Assembly (NCBI RefSeq): GCF_024227715.1
Contig: NZ_CP100448.1
Coordinates: 558,001 to 622,000 of the forward strand
Direction of reading: 5' to 3'
DNA from: Halomarina litorea
Lineage (GTDB): Archaea > Halobacteriota > Halobacteria > Halobacteriales > Haloarculaceae
Length of the DNA stretch: 64,000 bases
Made by a program: the position numbers and the translations under genes. How positions within the stretch are numbered: position 1 is the first letter of the stretch; each line of letters begins with the position of its first letter. Below are positions 18,232-25,726 of this stretch, in pieces. The notes below the pieces were generated by a model that was not told the DNA's origin, ran no database searches, and saw nothing but the letters and a program-made list of their open reading frames with translations.

Positions 18232-18645
18232 CTACTCCCCGCTCTCGAAGGCGTCGAGGCCGGCGCGCGCGACGGTCATGTCCTCCTCGGGCGACCCCCC
18301 GCTGACGCCGATGGCGCCGACGACGTCCCCGTCCACCTCGATGGGGAACCCGCCCCCGAAGGTGACGATGCGCCCGCCGTTGGTCGTCTCGATGCCGTAG
18401 AGGTCCTCGCCCGGTTGGGCCGCCTCGCCGACCGCCTCCGTCGAGAGCTTCAGGCTCACCGACGTGTAGGCCTTGTTCCGCGCGATGTCGATGCTCGCGA
18501 TGAGGGCGTCGTCCATCCGGTGGAACCCGACGAGGTTGCCCCCGCCGTCGGCCACCGCGATACACATCGGCACGCCGACGTCCTCGGCTTCCTCCTCCGC
18601 GGCCGCTATCATCGCCTTCGCGTCCTCTAGCTGTGGTCCTGTCAT
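18232..18645 (-). CDS. GlcG/HbpS-family (DUF336, PduO C-terminal type) protein
   Basis: A 137-residue single-domain protein of the GlcG/HbpS family. It shows the family landmarks VPMCIAVADGGGNLVGFHRMDDA, then ARNKAYTSV and a final Gly-rich GGFPIEVDGDVVGAIGVSGG region (motifs split here for length). HbpS binds haem; the same domain forms the C-terminal half of PduO, the cobalamin adenosyltransferase of diol metabolism. It lies less than 1 kb from pduCDE, which may be meaningful. A TATTAATA box lies 29 nt before the ATG. Haem or corrinoid handling is possible; not shown by sequence alone. Confidence 0.82.
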   Translation of the reverse strand: MTGPQLEDAKAMIAAAEEEAEDVGVPMCIAVADGGGNLVGFHRMDDALIASIDIARNKAYTSVSLKLSTEAVGEAAQPGEDLYGIETTNGGRIVTFGGGFPIEVDGDVVGAIGVSGGSPEEDMTVARAGLDAFESGE

Positions 18646-18747: not shown

Positions 18748-19044
18748 ATGGTCGACGAGCGACCGCCGGGGGAACGCCCGGACATCGAGGTGCTGTTCGA
18801 GACCATCGACCGCAACAGCGACCGCGAGTGGGCCGACTACCGGGCGGCCTTCGAGTTCACCGTCGTCGGCGAGAGCCGGGTTCGGGTCGCCCGTCCCGAC
18901 GAGGACCGTGAGGTGGACCACGTCGTCGAACTGGAGGGGGGTCGGGCGGCGGCCTGCGATTGCTTCTCCGCTCGCCGACCCGCCCCCTCGAGGGGACGGT
19001 CCTGCCGGCACATGCGTGCCGTCGACGCCCACCCCTTCCTCTAG
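18748..19044 (+). CDS. SWIM-type zinc-finger protein
   Basis: A 98-residue protein with a CxC...CxH pattern (C70, C72, C86, H88), the signature of SWIM zinc fingers, which mediate DNA or protein contact and are often linked to recombination or regulatory proteins. The N-terminal 65 residues are acidic and beta-rich. It reads toward pduE and the two genes overlap by 4 nt at their 3' ends (19041-19044). Whether it regulates the diol dehydratase genes is an open guess. Confidence 0.7.
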   Translation: MVDERPPGERPDIEVLFETIDRNSDREWADYRAAFEFTVVGESRVRVARPDEDREVDHVVELEGGRAAACDCFSARRPAPSRGRSCRHMRAVDAHPFL

Positions 19045-19442
19045 AAGAGACCTCGCTCCTCGTACACCTCCGCCGCCTCGCGGACGAACGCGGCGTTGAC
19101 CTCCGCGCCGTACTCCGATTCGAGTTCGTCGGCGATGTCGTGGAGCGTCTCCTTCTCGGCACCGCTCGGGCGCAGGGCGTTGTATATCTCGAGGATGCGG
19201 TCGTCGGGCACCTCGGTGAGTTCGGCGGCCCGCCGGAAGTTCCGGGCGACCTGCGGTCGGCCGCGGTCCTCGGCGATGCGCGCCTGCTTCTCCAAGGTCT
19301 CGGGGGTGATGGCGAGCTGGTCGCCGTCTATCTCCCCCTCGACGACCTTCTCTAAGGTTATCTCCGAGAGCTTCGTGCCGTCGGGTGTCGTTACGTTCTC
19401 CGGGTCGTCAGCCAGTGGGTACTGTATCTCGTCGTCGGTCAT
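19041..19442 (-). CDS. pduE: Diol/glycerol dehydratase small subunit
   Basis: Small (gamma) subunit, 133 aa, of adenosylcobalamin-dependent diol dehydratase. The N-terminal YPLADDPENVTTPDG stretch is close to bacterial PduE, and the helical C-terminal half with ALRPSGAEKET and the YEERGLF ending is characteristic. It caps the large subunit in the (abc)2 complex. It follows pduD with a 1-nt gap and is the last gene of the cluster. The subunit is full length, so the enzyme should be functional. Confidence 0.92.
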   Translation of the reverse strand: MTDDEIQYPLADDPENVTTPDGTKLSEITLEKVVEGEIDGDQLAITPETLEKQARIAEDRGRPQVARNFRRAAELTEVPDDRILEIYNALRPSGAEKETLHDIADELESEYGAEVNAAFVREAAEVYEERGLF

Positions 19443-19443
19443 A

Positions 19444-20013
19444 TCACTCGAAACTCACGTCCAGTTCGACCGGGTCGCGGTCGTCGCGGTAGTCCATCTC
19501 CTTGATGTGCCAGAGCGCCGCCAGCGCTTGGTACTTCGGTCGTGCCATCGGGTCGTTCGAGACGGGCACCGGCGCGGGCGTCTCGCCTTTCGCGTAGAGC
19601 GCCGCGTTCTTCCCGATGGCCCTGCACGTCTCGGCGTCGATGAGCGGCGCCTGTGGGAACAGTTCGAGGTTGTTCAGGGGCACCAGGTCGCGCTGGTGGA
19701 TGAGCGTCGTCCCCCGGGTCTGGATACCGATGGAGATCCCCGACCCGCTGAGTTTCGCCCCCCGCAGGCCGATGACGCCGAGGTCGAGGCTGTCGAAGAA
19801 GCGCACGATGCGGGCCGTGACGCCCTCCTCCTCGATGCCAGCGAGCATCTCGCGGATCATCTCGGCGTGCTTGACGCCCGCGAGCGTCTCGTCTTTCAGG
19901 TCGTTGAACCCCGCGCTGATGGCGATGACCACCTCGTCGGTGTCGGTGCCCTCCTCGGCGGGGCCGCGTTCGGTCAGTACGAGCGTCCGCTCTCGCTGCT
20001 GGGTCTGTGCCAT
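19444..20013 (-). CDS. pduD: Diol/glycerol dehydratase medium subunit
   Basis: Medium (beta) subunit, 189 aa, which together with PduC holds the B12 cofactor. Landmarks are VIAISAGFN near residue 29, the GLRGAKLSGSGISIGIQTRGT core and the C-terminal MARPKYQALAALWHI region. Bacterial PduD carries an N-terminal extension that targets it to microcompartments; here the N-terminus before the core is short (about 27 acidic residues) and does not look like such a signal. It lies 3 nt after pduC. Confidence 0.92.
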   Translation of the reverse strand: MAQTQQRERTLVLTERGPAEEGTDTDEVVIAISAGFNDLKDETLAGVKHAEMIREMLAGIEEEGVTARIVRFFDSLDLGVIGLRGAKLSGSGISIGIQTRGTTLIHQRDLVPLNNLELFPQAPLIDAETCRAIGKNAALYAKGETPAPVPVSNDPMARPKYQALAALWHIKEMDYRDDRDPVELDVSFE

Positions 20014-20016
20014 GGG

Positions 20017-21732
20017 TCAGATGTCCTCCGGGTCCACCGCGAAGCGGATGTTCTTCTTCTCCTCCCACTCCTCGCCCTCGAGGCGGTGGCCGGTGCCCGG
20101 CCCCTGGTACTCGTTGGGGTCGTTGACGGCGCTGATGACGTTGAAGTCCTCGTCGAACACGGCCGCCGTCTGGATGTAGTCGCCGGCGACGCGGCCCTTG
20201 AGAATCCCCAGTAAGTTCTCGGCGATGTCTTCGAAGCCGTTCTGTGCGAGTATCTTCGTCACGTCCGCGCCCGTGACGCCCTCCTCCATCATCTCCCCCG
20301 CGGCCTTGATGTCCTCGGCCTGCTTGCGGTCGGGCATGTCCTCGCTGCCGTCGGCGTAGGTGGCGGCCTCCACCTCCTCGTCGGTGATGGGCGGGAAGCC
20401 CAGTTCCTCGAAGACGGTCTGGAGTGCGCGCGCCGCCCGGTTGCGGTGTTCGACGACCGTCTCCTCGTCGACGGGTCTCGTCCCCCCCTCGACCTGCAGG
20501 TCCCGTTGCATCACGTTGTACTCGTCGAAGTCGTAGGAGTCGAACGTCGACCCGGCGAACATGTTGTCGTAGTTCGGGACGGCGCTGTACCCCGAGAAGA
20601 TGAAGTCCGTCCCCGCGAGGAACTGGGGCATCATCCGGGCCGTGCGGCGCTTCTCCGAGTGGGTGAACGTCTGATCGTTCCCGGAGGCGACTTCGAGGTC
20701 GGCCATCATCGTCACGAGGTTCTCCGCGGCTACCTCCTTGACCCCGCCCGGGACGGACGTTGGGATGGCGATACAGCTGATACCGCCGTTCTGGAGCCCC
20801 TGCACGCCACACCCCTTGGTGACGAGGATGCACCGGATTTCGAGGTAGAGCATCGACTTGCCCTCGGCCTGACCCATGTTCAGTTCGGAGCCGGCCCCGG
20901 AGGTGTAGCGCATCTTCAGGCCTCGGGAGGCGTACCCCGAGGCGAGGAAGGCCTTCGACCACGGCGTGTCGTCGCCGTCCTTGAACACGTCCTCGGTGCC
21001 GTACACCGACACCGTCTCGGCGTAGCCGGTCATCCCGCGCATCCCGAGTTCGAGTTCTGTCGCCTCCTCGACGGCACACTGCGTGATGACGCCGCCCCGG
21101 CCACACTGCGCGCCGATCTGCTGGGCGAGCGCCGTCAGCGGGGCCATCCGGGCGACGCCGACGGTGTTCTCCGCCTCGTAGAACCCCCGGAGGGCGGCCT
21201 CCGCCGCGTCCGCCGCGATCTGGACCGGGTTGTCCTTGACGCTCGTGACGTGACACTGGTTACCCGGCGTCTGGCGCGTGCGCATCTTTTTCATCGCCAT
21301 GATTATCTCGGCGATGTCGAGGTGGTTGACCACCTCCGCCAGTTTCGCGGGCGTCATCGCCGTCGAGAGTTCCACTACCTCCGAGCGCGGGACGTTGATG
21401 TCCACGAGGTCGCGGGCGAACTCGAGGGAGTCCGTCGCCATGGCCTCCTCCGCCCGTTCGACGTCGATGGCGTAGTCCGCGATGAACCGGTCGATGAAGT
21501 CGAACTCGTCGCGCTCCTTCCCGTCCATCTCGACGATGCGCCCGTCCTCGACCTCGATGCTCGGGTCCGGGTCGTTGGGGCTCTCCATCGCGACGAACCC
21601 CACCTCGGGCCACTCGTTGACGAAGCCGTCCTCGGTTATCGCCCGTTCGTCGAGGGCCTCGAAGCGTTTCGACCGCCGCGTACCCCCCCTGTCCTCCTCG
21701 GCGTCGCTGTGGGGTGTGTTCCCCTCTGTCAT
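20017..21732 (-). CDS. pduC: Adenosylcobalamin-dependent diol/glycerol dehydratase large subunit
   Basis: Catalytic alpha subunit (571 aa) converting propane-1,2-diol to propanal or glycerol to 3-hydroxypropanal by a radical mechanism. Sequence follows bacterial PduC nearly end to end: NQCHVTSV (active-site His), TQCALEE-like TQCAVEEATEL, GDDTPWSKAFLA, GLKMRYTSGAGSE, GVQGLQNGG and SGYSAVPNYDNMFAGS. It carries an extra acidic N-terminus of about 20 residues, a usual halophile adaptation. The high identity of motifs to bacterial enzymes suggests acquisition from bacteria. Glycerol, plentiful in salterns, is an attractive substrate but propanediol is equally possible. Confidence 0.95.
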   Translation of the reverse strand: MTEGNTPHSDAEEDRGGTRRSKRFEALDERAITEDGFVNEWPEVGFVAMESPNDPDPSIEVEDGRIVEMDGKERDEFDFIDRFIADYAIDVERAEEAMATDSLEFARDLVDINVPRSEVVELSTAMTPAKLAEVVNHLDIAEIIMAMKKMRTRQTPGNQCHVTSVKDNPVQIAADAAEAALRGFYEAENTVGVARMAPLTALAQQIGAQCGRGGVITQCAVEEATELELGMRGMTGYAETVSVYGTEDVFKDGDDTPWSKAFLASGYASRGLKMRYTSGAGSELNMGQAEGKSMLYLEIRCILVTKGCGVQGLQNGGISCIAIPTSVPGGVKEVAAENLVTMMADLEVASGNDQTFTHSEKRRTARMMPQFLAGTDFIFSGYSAVPNYDNMFAGSTFDSYDFDEYNVMQRDLQVEGGTRPVDEETVVEHRNRAARALQTVFEELGFPPITDEEVEAATYADGSEDMPDRKQAEDIKAAGEMMEEGVTGADVTKILAQNGFEDIAENLLGILKGRVAGDYIQTAAVFDEDFNVISAVNDPNEYQGPGTGHRLEGEEWEEKKNIRFAVDPEDI

Positions 21733-21760
21733 TACGGATGCACGCAGGGGAGGACCCCGG

Positions 21761-21766
21761 ATATAC
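21761..21766 (-). promoter_or_regulatory. TATA box in front of pduC
   Basis: Minus-strand TATAT about 29 nt before the pduC ATG, within the 164-nt gap that separates pduGH from pduCDE. It suggests that the dehydratase genes have a promoter of their own in addition to possible read-through from the reactivase genes. Confidence 0.5.
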
Positions 21767-21896
21767 TTTCACCGTTTCTACCACTGTTGTAAAAAAGTGA
21801 ACAATGAATAACGAAAGTGAGCTTGTCATCTCACTATCTGGCACTATTCGGCGTTCCTGTCTATCGTCGGCGGTTCCAGGTCCCCGAACGACGGGT

Positions 21897-22259
21897 TCAA
21901 TCGAGGGGCTTCAGCGGCGTCCCCTTCGCCAGGCGCGCCGCGTTCGACCCGAGTTTCCGCGCGGTCGCCGTCGAAACCTCCCGAACGTCGAACAGGGGGT
22001 CGTCGTCGGGCAGCTGCTTGTGGTGGACGACGACCCGGTCGCCGAGGACGCTCACGCCGATTTTCAGCGACGACGCCCGCGCCGCCTCGAATGCTACCGA
22101 CACGCCGTCGCCGGTCGCCCCCGACTCGACGGCCCACGGGACGCCGTCCTCCTCGATGCCGTGTTCGACGTGGGAGACGAGACGCGATTCGTCGCCACAC
22201 CGGACGAGGATCCGGGGCACGTCGTCGCCCCCGCCGTCGGGTCGCGGGTCGCCTCCCAT
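21897..22259 (-). CDS. pduH: Diol dehydratase reactivase small subunit
   Basis: Small subunit (120 aa) of the chaperone-like factor that removes damaged cobalamin from diol dehydratase. It has the fold-typical ILVRCGDES, then a GIEEDGVPW motif near residue 35 and the C-terminal ARKLGSNAARLAKG. Its start overlaps the pduG stop by one base (TGATG), so the two subunits are made together in equal amounts. Length is normal. Confidence 0.88.
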   Translation of the reverse strand: MGGDPRPDGGGDDVPRILVRCGDESRLVSHVEHGIEEDGVPWAVESGATGDGVSVAFEAARASSLKIGVSVLGDRVVVHHKQLPDDDPLFDVREVSTATARKLGSNAARLAKGTPLKPLD

Positions 22260-24163
22260 CAGTCGTCCCCCGCGGCCGCCCGGTCCAGCGAGGCGGTCAG
22301 TTCCTCCGGGAGGGCGAAGTCGAGGTAGCCGCCGTCCCCGACGTGCGAGAGGACGAGACCCGTCGCCACGGCGTTTCGTGGGCCCATCTCGCCTCTGACG
22401 TTCGCCCGCCCGCAGACGATGCCGTACTCCGCGAGGGCGTCCGAGACCAGTTCGGGTATCTCGAAGTCGAGCGCCGACCGGCCGACCATCACGACGAAGG
22501 GGAGGTGCCGGATGCTGTCCGTCGGGGTCACGAGGTTGAGTGCCCGTTCGGCGTTCGTCACGAACACCTTTCGCTTGGCCTCGCGGCGGGTCCGCCGTAT
22601 CTCCTCGACGGAGGCGTCGGCCGTCACCGGGCGCAACCCGCCCTCGTCCTCGATGAGCACCGTCCGCCCGAACAGCTCGGGGTCCACCGCCTCGTCGAAG
22701 AACGTCACCGTCCCGTCCTCCTGTCTGATGCTGAACAGCGTCTCGACCTTCGCGGCGGGGAACTTCTTGATGGCCTCCGCCTGGTCCCGGTCGTCGAGGC
22801 CGAGTTCCGAGTCGATGAGCATCGTCACCATGTCGCCGGCCCCCGAGAGATGGATGGAGTCGATGGCGAGGTCCTCGCCCATGTAGGCGGCGTCCGTCGA
22901 CCCCCCGCCCATGTCGAGAATGGCGACGGGGCGGTCGGTCCCCGGCGTCGTCAGCGACCCGAGGACGGCCATGTTCGCCTCGACGCCCTGGATGAGCACC
23001 TCACAGCCCAGCTCCGCCCCGACGCCGTCGGCTATCTGTCGCATCGGGAGGCGCTGGGTCTTGACCATCGCCGCGAGCCCCACTGCGTTCTCCATGCTGT
23101 ACTCGTCGGCCACCGACCCCTGGACGTTCTGCGGGACGAGAGTGTCGACGGCCATCACGTCGCGTATCTCGATGTCCTCGACGGCCTGTCCGGTCACCTC
23201 CGCCATGCTGTCGCGCGCCCGGTTGAGCATCCCGCCGATGTTCGACCCGCTCTCCCCGCGGACGTCCGAGACGGGCCAACTGCGCATCACGGCGTCCATG
23301 ATGCGGCCGGCCCCCTCGTCGACGGGCACCTCGACGGTGTTGCCCCGTTCGTCGACGATTCGGAGGTCGCCCGCCGGGATGGTCCGCTCCTCGACGTCGC
23401 CCTTCGGCGTCTTGACGACCACCGCAGACTTGTTGCCCACCAGCGCCCGCGCGACGGGGATGACCTTCCGGGTCTCCTCGGGCGAGAGGTCGAACGCCGT
23501 CGCGATACCGTAGGGGTTCGACAGTTCGTCGATGGTCCGTCCCGTCCGCGATGGGGCCACCTCGACTGCCGCCGGTTGCCCCCGTGGGATGGCCTCCAGA
23601 CGCGACACCTCGTCGACGATGGGGACGTCGGCGTCGATGCGGTTGTCGATGAGGACCGCGTCGTCGTTCTGGACGACGGCGCCGGCTACCTCGACCCCCG
23701 CGTCGGCCCACTCGTTGATGCGCTCGGCGGCGACGGCGAAGTCCACCTCGCCGGGCACGAGGAAGACGAGCGACTCGCCCGGGTCGTAGTCGTCCATGTC
23801 CGCCGTGACGTCTACCGTCGTCCCCATCCCAAGGCCCTCCCCGCCGGGCGTCGAGGGGTCGTGGCCGATCATCGTGGACTCCGTGATGACCGTCTCCGTG
23901 ATGGTCTCCATGGCGACGTCACCGATGACCGGGGCCGCCTCGTTGAGGAGGACACGGTCCACGTCCCGGGCCTCGATGTCGGCCTCCTCGGCCGCCCGTT
24001 CGAGCGCCCGCACCACGCCGGGGACGTTCTTCTCCGTCCCTTTCAGTCCCGTCGTCCGGGAGAGACTGGCCGCCACGAACGTCACCGTCCCCTCGTCGTC
24101 TCGGCGAACGAGTGCGACTTCGGTGCTGGAGTTTCCGATATCCACACCCGCGATGTACTCCAT
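22259..24163 (-). CDS. pduG: Diol dehydratase reactivase large subunit, ATPase
   Basis: Large subunit (634 aa) of the reactivase, an actin/Hsp70-fold ATPase. The N-terminal GVDIGNSSTEVAL phosphate loop at residues 6-18, NEAAPVIGD near 95 and the second phosphate loop LDMGGGSTDAA around residue 415 are all present. It releases inactive cofactor from PduCDE using ATP. In this cluster the reactivase genes come first, upstream of the dehydratase genes, the reverse of the usual bacterial order. No cobalamin adenosyltransferase or shell-protein gene is in the window. Confidence 0.93.
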   Translation of the reverse strand: MEYIAGVDIGNSSTEVALVRRDDEGTVTFVAASLSRTTGLKGTEKNVPGVVRALERAAEEADIEARDVDRVLLNEAAPVIGDVAMETITETVITESTMIGHDPSTPGGEGLGMGTTVDVTADMDDYDPGESLVFLVPGEVDFAVAAERINEWADAGVEVAGAVVQNDDAVLIDNRIDADVPIVDEVSRLEAIPRGQPAAVEVAPSRTGRTIDELSNPYGIATAFDLSPEETRKVIPVARALVGNKSAVVVKTPKGDVEERTIPAGDLRIVDERGNTVEVPVDEGAGRIMDAVMRSWPVSDVRGESGSNIGGMLNRARDSMAEVTGQAVEDIEIRDVMAVDTLVPQNVQGSVADEYSMENAVGLAAMVKTQRLPMRQIADGVGAELGCEVLIQGVEANMAVLGSLTTPGTDRPVAILDMGGGSTDAAYMGEDLAIDSIHLSGAGDMVTMLIDSELGLDDRDQAEAIKKFPAAKVETLFSIRQEDGTVTFFDEAVDPELFGRTVLIEDEGGLRPVTADASVEEIRRTRREAKRKVFVTNAERALNLVTPTDSIRHLPFVVMVGRSALDFEIPELVSDALAEYGIVCGRANVRGEMGPRNAVATGLVLSHVGDGGYLDFALPEELTASLDRAAAGDD

Positions 24164-24339: not shown

Positions 24340-25314
24340 GTGGTCGACCGTCCTGACCCCCACTCGACCGTCAGCGAGGTCGAAGCCCACCGGCTGCCGC
24401 CGCGTCTCGCCGCCATCGCGGACCGGTACGACGCGGCCGTCGGGGTCCGGGACCGCTTCCTCTGGAAGTGGTTCCACCACCTCAACCCCGCCTTCCGGCT
24501 CTCGTCGGTGGCTCCCGCCCACGAGCGGAAGGTCCGGACCGACAAGAGCCTCCTCACGTTCTACGTGACGCTCCTCGACGACCTGGTCGACGAACGCGAC
24601 GACCTCGCGACGTTTCAGGAGGCGGCGAAGGTCCCCTTCGACCACTGTCGCGCCGAGGCCGACCGTCGGGGGGTGGACCGCCGGGTGCTGTCGCTCGCCG
24701 AGGAGGTGTGGGACGCCTTCGAGCGGTCGGCCCGCTGCGCCCCCCGGTTCGGGGAGTTCGTCGACCTCCTCCGGTACGACCTCCAGCAGGCGGTCAACGC
24801 CGTCCGCTACGGCCACATCACCAACCGCTACCCGCAGGGGACGACGCTCCGGGAGTCATACGACTACGCCTCGCACAACATGGCGATGTTCTCCTTCGCG
24901 GACGTCGACCTCATGCACTCGCCGTCGTTCGAGCGCCGGGAACTCCGCGGCGTCAGGTCCTGTATCTGGACGGCCCAGCGGATGGCCCGCATCGGCAACT
25001 GGGTGAGCACGTGGAAGCGCGAACTCGCCTCCGGCGACCTCACGTCGGGCGTCCTCGTCTGTGCCGCCGAGCAGGACATCGTCTCCGAGGGCGACCTCCA
25101 GCGACTCCGCGAGGACCCCGACGAGGCGTTCGTGGCGACCCTCCGCGAGCGAATCGACCGCGAGGCCGTCCCCGCACTGCTCTTAGAGCAGTGGCGGGCG
25201 TACTACGAGGAACTGGCGGTGGCCGCCGACCTCGACTCGGTCGACATCGACCGGTTCCGTCGGGGGATGCGCCGGGTGATGCAGTACCACGTCGAGAGCG
25301 AGGGCCGCAAGTAA
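24340..25314 (+). CDS. Class I terpene-synthase-like protein
   Basis: A 324-residue, mostly helical protein with both metal-binding motifs of class I terpene cyclases: DDLVD at residues 80-84 (DDxxD) and N220-x3-T224-x3-E228 (the NSE/DTE motif), about 136 residues apart as in bacterial sesquiterpene synthases. Size is also right for a single-domain bacterial enzyme. An RYGHITNRYP segment and a C-terminal RRVMQYH add family flavour. It would ionise a prenyl diphosphate such as FPP or GGPP and cyclise it in the cytoplasm. The GTG start is set by a TATA box 28 nt upstream. A squalene/phytoene-synthase-like role is less likely because there is only one DDxxD motif. Confidence 0.7.
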   Translation: MVDRPDPHSTVSEVEAHRLPPRLAAIADRYDAAVGVRDRFLWKWFHHLNPAFRLSSVAPAHERKVRTDKSLLTFYVTLLDDLVDERDDLATFQEAAKVPFDHCRAEADRRGVDRRVLSLAEEVWDAFERSARCAPRFGEFVDLLRYDLQQAVNAVRYGHITNRYPQGTTLRESYDYASHNMAMFSFADVDLMHSPSFERRELRGVRSCIWTAQRMARIGNWVSTWKRELASGDLTSGVLVCAAEQDIVSEGDLQRLREDPDEAFVATLRERIDREAVPALLLEQWRAYYEELAVAADLDSVDIDRFRRGMRRVMQYHVESEGRK

Positions 25315-25330
25315 CCGCCACGCAGTGGGC

Positions 25331-25335
25331 TTTAT
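25331..25335 (+). promoter_or_regulatory. TATA-like box before the winged-helix gene
   Basis: TTTAT 26-30 nt before the ATG at 25361, in the short gap after the terpene-synthase-like gene. It indicates separate, leaderless transcription and excludes a longer start at 25325. Confidence 0.4.
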
Positions 25336-25360
25336 CCCTCACCGGTCCCCCTGTTGGGCC

Positions 25361-25726
25361 ATGGTCGAGGCCATCGAGTCGACGACGCTGTCCGAGCGAG
25401 TGGTGCTGCTGGGCGTGACGGAACTGACCGAACGCGGGCAGACGCCCATCCACTCCAGTTCCGTCAAGCGCGCCTGCGTCGACCGCCTCGGCGAGGTGGA
25501 CGGCGACGTCGTCGGGAGCCTCTCGGAGTCCGACGTGGTCCGGGCGCTCAACCGACTGGAGGGCGAGGGCCTCATCGCCCGCGTCACCGTCGAGGACCCC
25601 TCGCCGGTCGGGAAGGGCCGTCCCACCTACGAACTGTCGGCGGACCCCGACCGCGTCCTCGAGACGCTGGCCGAGGACGGCCGGGTCGCCCGTCTCGTCG
25701 AGGGCGTTCGCGACGGCGGCGCGTGA
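25361..25726 (+). CDS. Small winged-helix DNA-binding protein
   Basis: A 121-residue protein with a winged-helix pattern: a helix LSERVVLLGVTEL, a recognition region around SESDVVRALNRLEGEGLI, and a wing with KGRPTYELS. It resembles the winged-helix domain at the C-terminus of haloarchaeal Orc1/Cdc6 proteins and small PadR/MarR-like regulators, but has no ATPase part. It lies 46 nt after the terpene-synthase-like gene on the same strand and is a plausible local regulator; targets unknown. Confidence 0.7.
   Translation: MVEAIESTTLSERVVLLGVTELTERGQTPIHSSSVKRACVDRLGEVDGDVVGSLSESDVVRALNRLEGEGLIARVTVEDPSPVGKGRPTYELSADPDRVLETLAEDGRVARLVEGVRDGGA

Follow-up and report, generated by a model that had tools for sequence, protein, structure and literature searches.

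Within the window, that is, the whole stretch of 64,000 nucleotides of Halomarina litorea DNA that was analyzed, one gene encodes a protein with two motifs resembling the magnesium-binding motifs of class I terpene synthases. This raises the question of whether the archaeon possesses an enzyme of this kind. Enzymes of this class are familiar from plants, fungi and bacteria. The original prediction, made from the nucleotide sequence, named the gene as a candidate and proposed structure prediction, comparison with pentalenene and geosmin synthases and a profile search with terpene synthase models as checks. Archaeal membranes are built from isoprenoids, and to our knowledge defined small archaeal terpenoids are hardly known.

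Metal motifs, profile matches and predicted fold

The ORF is intact from its start codon to its stop codon (Table 1). The claim that both metal motifs occur with the correct spacing in a protein of this size was borne out: residues D80, D81, D84, N220, T224 and E228 were all found at the predicted positions, and the distance between D80 and N220 is 140 residues, compared with 139 in pentalenene synthase (D80/N219, 1PS1 sequence). Note that the DDxxD and NxxxTxxxE pair is by itself weak evidence for a terpene synthase. With a spacing of 120–160 residues, the bare pair was found in 3 of 305 other haloarchaeal ORFs of at least 250 aa, and in 9 of the 305 if aspartate was allowed in place of asparagine. 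Since a pair at such spacing is not rare among acidic haloarchaeal proteins, the claim could not rest on the motifs by themselves; they become strong evidence in combination with the profile match, the conservation in 64 of 64 homologues and a high-confidence model whose fold matches terpene synthases.

Table 1. Features of the window discussed in the text (positions in nucleotides of the window)
Feature	Position	Strand	Remarks
Class I terpene-synthase-family gene (predicted)	24340–25314	+	324 aa; GTG start; PF19086 match; same-length homologues; model with pLDDT 95.6
First metal motif (predicted), DDLVD, residues 80–84	24577–24591	+	C-terminal end of predicted helix 59–84
Possible linker/effector residues H179-N180-M181	24874–24882	+	helix-G break; predicted helices 177–181 and 183–192 (DSSP)
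Candidate diphosphate sensor R217, helix H	24988–24990	+	invariant (64/64); 3 residues before N220
Second metal motif (predicted), N220-WVS-T224-WKR-E228 (NSE/DTE type)	24997–25023	+	in predicted helix 199–231
Small winged-helix protein gene	25325–25726	+	downstream, same strand; weak Cdc6_C/Lrs14/PadR-like matches
B12-dependent diol/glycerol dehydratase set	19041–24163	-	complete: large, medium and small subunits, and reactivase with small subunit-like gene
HbpS-like gene	18232–18645		near the dehydratase set

The profile search revealed a match of residues 75–247 of the window protein to the Pfam family Terpene_syn_C_2 (PF19086; E 6.8e-07, 29.7 bits), which exceeds the curated cut-off of 23.7. 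Among the family members, 39 of 63 matched PF19086 at E ≤ 0.01, and many did not reach the cut-off. Neither the window protein nor the family members had a Pfam match to polyprenyl_synt (PF00348) or squalene/phytoene synthase. The sequence has very little similarity to characterized terpene synthases. An NCBIfam search with the window protein found nothing, and a phmmer search with this protein alone against the PDB likewise gave no match. When the family profile was compared with the PDB, Stt4548 alone was reached, weakly (E 1.7), with the alignment lying on the RxGN(x3)S/T(x3)E block. Using hhalign, no similarity to pentalenene synthase alone was found. The comparison with 12 bacterial-type synthases gave an E of 0.009 but a probability of 4%; in this weak comparison, the NSE block was aligned in register, placing N220/T224/E228 on the NSE columns of the bacterial enzymes. 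Some other weak PF19086 matches from the phylum scan were rejected as family members, since L129 overlaps a methyltransferase-like ORF and L133 is a different protein.

Both metal motifs are kept in 64/64 aligned homologues, down to 23% identity. In these sequences the first motif has the form [DN]Dxx[DE], with D or N at position 80 (95% D), D81 in 100% and E or D at position 84 in 100%. In the second motif, N220, W221, W225, R227 and E228 are present in 100% and T224 in 98% of the sequences. The residues invariant in the 63-sequence alignment are D81, P135, D190, R206, R217, N220, W221, W225, R227, E228, D233 and D302.

Modeling with AlphaFold2 and the 63-sequence alignment led to an all-alpha model of high confidence (pTM 0.92), which corresponds to the predicted isoprenoid-synthase bundle. 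In the model, a broken helix (residues 170–192, helix G) precedes the long helix that bears the second motif. A Foldseek search of the PDB with this model gave hydropyrene, T-muurolol and aristolochene synthases as the best matches (E about 1e-4, TM up to 0.68), while prenyl synthases, including FPP synthases, and the N-prenyltransferase DabA ranked lower. The positions of the helices and the fold match suggest that both metal motifs may face one cavity. The same fold was predicted for a distant Methanosarcina homologue (pLDDT 91.2), for which Sat1646 and BjKS were at the top of the Foldseek list and the first 50 matches were terpene synthases only. This homologue comes from genome G717 (family f19), which we take to be that of Methanosarcina acetivorans. 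No viral relatives of the family were found in IMG/VR; the top match in the viral fold library was an Orpheovirus terpenoid synthase, and it was weak (E 0.015). In general, the PF19086 match, the conservation in 64 homologues, the model and the Foldseek results support the class I terpene synthase reading as regards the fold and metal motifs.

Predicted diphosphate site and comparison with characterized synthases

The window protein resembles pentalenene synthase in its DDxxD and N/S/E motifs, which have nearly the same residue numbers and spacing, in the all-alpha fold and in PF19086 membership, by a weak but above-cut-off match. However, the 12 bacterial-type synthases also contain an invariant sensor arginine (Arg173, which lies in helix G and precedes the NSE asparagine by about 46 residues) and an invariant Arg314-Tyr315 pair, which have no counterpart in the archaeal family. 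Across the 64 family sequences, no conserved arginine was found at the helix-G place, and no C-terminal RY pair was found, H317 (83%) being located there instead. These two features were looked for and were absent, so the window protein was not assigned to the pentalenene type. Thus, the similarity to pentalenene and geosmin synthases holds for the fold but does not extend to the sensor arginine and RY pair.

A different comparison is offered by Sat1646 and Stt4548, actinomycete class I diterpene synthases that use copalyl diphosphate (PDB 7e4n and 7e4m; PMC9814573). These enzymes have no helix-G sensor; their sensor is Arg220/Arg236 on helix H, with the linker and effector at the helix-G break, and Arg220 of Sat1646 lies three residues before Asn223 (PMC9814573). 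The archaeal family is similar to them in fold, as indicated by the top Foldseek matches of the Methanosarcina homologue (with BjKS, 4xlx, next), in the combination of DDxxD-type and NSE-type motifs and in having a helix-H arginine that precedes the NSE asparagine by three residues; the offset between R217 and N220 is the same as that between Arg220 and Asn223. At the same time, the identity is only about 9–16%, the second motif is NWxxTWxRE in the archaeal family and NDxxSxxR(D/E) in the actinomycete enzymes, and, whereas the actinomycete enzymes use copalyl diphosphate, the Halomarina litorea genome has no recognizable class II cyclase (no PF13243 match).

Since R217 occupies the same place as Arg220 of Sat1646 and the Stt4548 profile match is aligned on that block, we infer that R217 could be the diphosphate sensor and N180/M181 the linker/effector residues. 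At the helix-G break, N180 is found in 89% and M181 in 94% of the family sequences. The counterpart of R217 is absent in the Methanosarcina branch, where DDxxD and NxxxTxxxE are kept. Judged by its predicted fold and metal motifs, the window protein is a class I terpene synthase of a non-canonical subfamily.

Distribution and genomic neighborhood of the family

The original prediction considered such enzymes to be rare in archaea, which was not supported for this family. In the first search of relatives, homologues were found in 17 of 59 genomes, and the class-wide search of 391 Halobacteria genomes revealed them in 120, representing 39 of 86 genera, with up to three per genome. The Halomarina litorea genome itself contains a second copy (paralogue L060) with 40% identity to the window protein. 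The phylum profile search added methanogen relatives in families f35 (genus g137), f19 (genera g116, g147 and g158) and f21. Six homologues located on named haloarchaeal plasmids were all annotated as hypothetical proteins. Tandem or near-tandem pairs of family genes in one locus or contig, namely in L089 (4926–5990 and 6271–7311) and L055/L054 (G002:C22), suggest duplication, and some copies appear to be decaying through insertions, stops or breakage into pieces (L183 in G080:C1, L178/L179 in G614 and L163/L177 in G499).

A bioRxiv preprint by Samusevich et al. (10.1101/2024.01.29.577750; reference 48 of PMC12797696) claims in its title that terpenoid biosynthesis in archaea was found by structure-enabled prediction. 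No description of the archaeal class I family was found in open papers. Subject to that preprint, the breadth of the family, the helix-H sensor pattern and the linkage to regulators appear to be new.

The window gene has a divergently oriented operon for a B12-dependent diol dehydratase on one side and an FAD oxidoreductase gene on the other. Neither a prenyl synthase nor a P450 or another tailoring gene was recognized beside it, and no sensory or regulatory neighbor of the kinds typical of the family was found at this locus. The winged-helix gene immediately downstream is perhaps co-transcribed with the window gene, and its product had been proposed to control it. Homologues of this small protein were found in 24 of 59 relatives, where they lie away from the terpene-synthase gene; genomes that lack such a gene have them as well. 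The gene was therefore rejected as a dedicated, conserved regulator.

The idea of regulation did find support at the level of the family. About 10 kb around 60 homologues were analyzed; genes were called by a simple composition rule and the neighbors were compared, with control genes drawn from the same genomes. Adjacent sensory or regulatory genes were counted in 39/124 cases at the homologues and in 3/120 cases at the controls (Fisher p 3e-10, with related loci treated as independent), and 33 of 62 family loci had such an adjacent gene. In the Pfam tally of immediate neighbors, BAT/HTH_10 was counted 12 times versus 2–3 in the controls, and FilR1 10 times versus at most 1. Representative neighbors were Bat proteins (PAS-GAF-BAT-HTH_10), FilR1/HVO_A0261 regulators, DUF7344 and HalOD1 proteins and PAS histidine kinases. 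The genes of FilR1/HVO_A0261 regulators overlap the terpene-synthase gene by 4 nt, and a divergent Bat gene and a HalOD1 gene adjoin the paralogue L060. In addition, one ORF (L087:4463–5980 in G113:C2) consists of receiver, HalX and terpene-synthase parts, and it is possible that this fusion is a response regulator whose output is terpene-synthase activity.

Note that the regulator labels cluster on the family tree, that is, related loci are not independent. The starred branches of the tree force at least one BAT, two FilR1 and three histidine-kinase changes, which together with the fusion amounts to at least seven associations by that count. Bat-type, FilR1-like or histidine-kinase neighbors probably control expression in much of the family, the window locus being outside this group. 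The presence of adjacent regulators suggests that the product is made in response to the environment and is not a housekeeping compound. A metallo-beta-lactamase gene was found beside 12 homologues and was not taken as a functional partner, because these loci form one clade with a shared housekeeping neighborhood. Genes for prenyl synthases, P450s and other tailoring or acceptor-modifying enzymes were not recognized as recurrent neighbors of the homologues.

Possible function and alternative explanations

All these data are best explained if the enzyme encoded by the window gene belongs to a class I terpene-synthase family that is widespread in archaea, and we consider this explanation probable as a whole. 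In such an enzyme, three Mg2+ ions held by D80/D84 and N220/T224/E228 would bind a linear prenyl diphosphate by its diphosphate group, the substrate being FPP or GGPP provided by the prenyl synthases of the cell. R217 on helix H would sense the diphosphate and, together with N180/M181 at the helix-G break, trigger ionization, after which the carbocation in the pocket would cyclize or be quenched, and the product, a terpene or terpene alcohol, would be released. The Halomarina litorea genome contains three polyprenyl synthetase genes, which can supply the substrate. Sat1646 and Stt4548 use copalyl diphosphate, but because of these genes, and because no recognizable class II cyclase is present, the substrate is more likely to be FPP or GGPP.

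The same metal site would also serve an enzyme of the class I fold that is not a cyclase, such as a prenyl transferase acting on a small acceptor or a diphosphate lyase forming a linear alcohol or alkene. The absence of the canonical effector triad and RY pair from the family and the occurrence of DabA and prenyl synthases further down the Foldseek list would fit such an activity. However, for both models terpene synthases outrank prenyl synthases, the second motif has the form NxxxTxxxE rather than that of a second DDxxD, and acceptor-modifying genes do not recur nearby, which makes this explanation unlikely. It is still much less probable that the protein is a trans-prenyl diphosphate synthase for chain elongation or a relative of squalene/phytoene synthases. 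The superfamily fold is common to both groups, and FPP synthases are present at lower Foldseek ranks, but the single DDxxD with an NTE motif, the lack of Pfam matches to those families and the three separate polyprenyl synthetase genes already in the genome argue against this assignment, and we regard it as the least probable of all.

The neighborhood data could also be read as evidence for a sensory or regulatory protein that has the isoprenoid-synthase fold and binds a prenyl diphosphate as a signal without turnover, given the adjacent Bat, FilR1-like, histidine-kinase, HalOD1 and DUF7344 genes and the receiver-HalX fusion. Nevertheless, D81, N220 and E228 are invariant in all 64 sequences, which mere binding does not demand, and the window gene has no such neighbor; this reading seems very improbable. 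Returning to an active terpene synthase, the class I family might be an output of archaeal sensory systems, in which Bat, histidine-kinase or receiver-HalX signals lead to a diffusible terpenoid and the FilR1-like neighbor in DUF7344-TPS-FilR1-HalOD1 operons may sense the product, forming a terpenoid signaling circuit. We put this forward as a speculative and rather doubtful extension.

The linkage to regulators and the response-regulator fusion suggest light, oxygen, redox state and density as possible trigger conditions, and archaea may make terpenes on cue. About one in three Halobacteria species has a member of the family, as does Methanosarcina; genetic systems exist for both groups, so the questions of product and timing are testable. 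If active, the family would be a second lineage with a helix-H diphosphate sensor and would inform how class I terpene synthases trigger ionization.

Two bacterial-type terpene synthases were also found on haloarchaeal plasmids, namely in Actinarchaeum halophilum (L234, 3494–4885) and Halocatena marina (L235, 3467–4906), where they are annotated as hypothetical protein and SRPBCC family protein. Like the window protein, they are haloarchaeal class I synthases by type, yet they fall outside its family and align with the bacterial enzymes. Both keep the sensor arginine and RY pair, carry an SRPBCC-like N-terminal fusion and are adjoined by a polyprenyl synthetase gene. They were probably acquired from bacteria and represent a separate type of archaeal terpene synthase.
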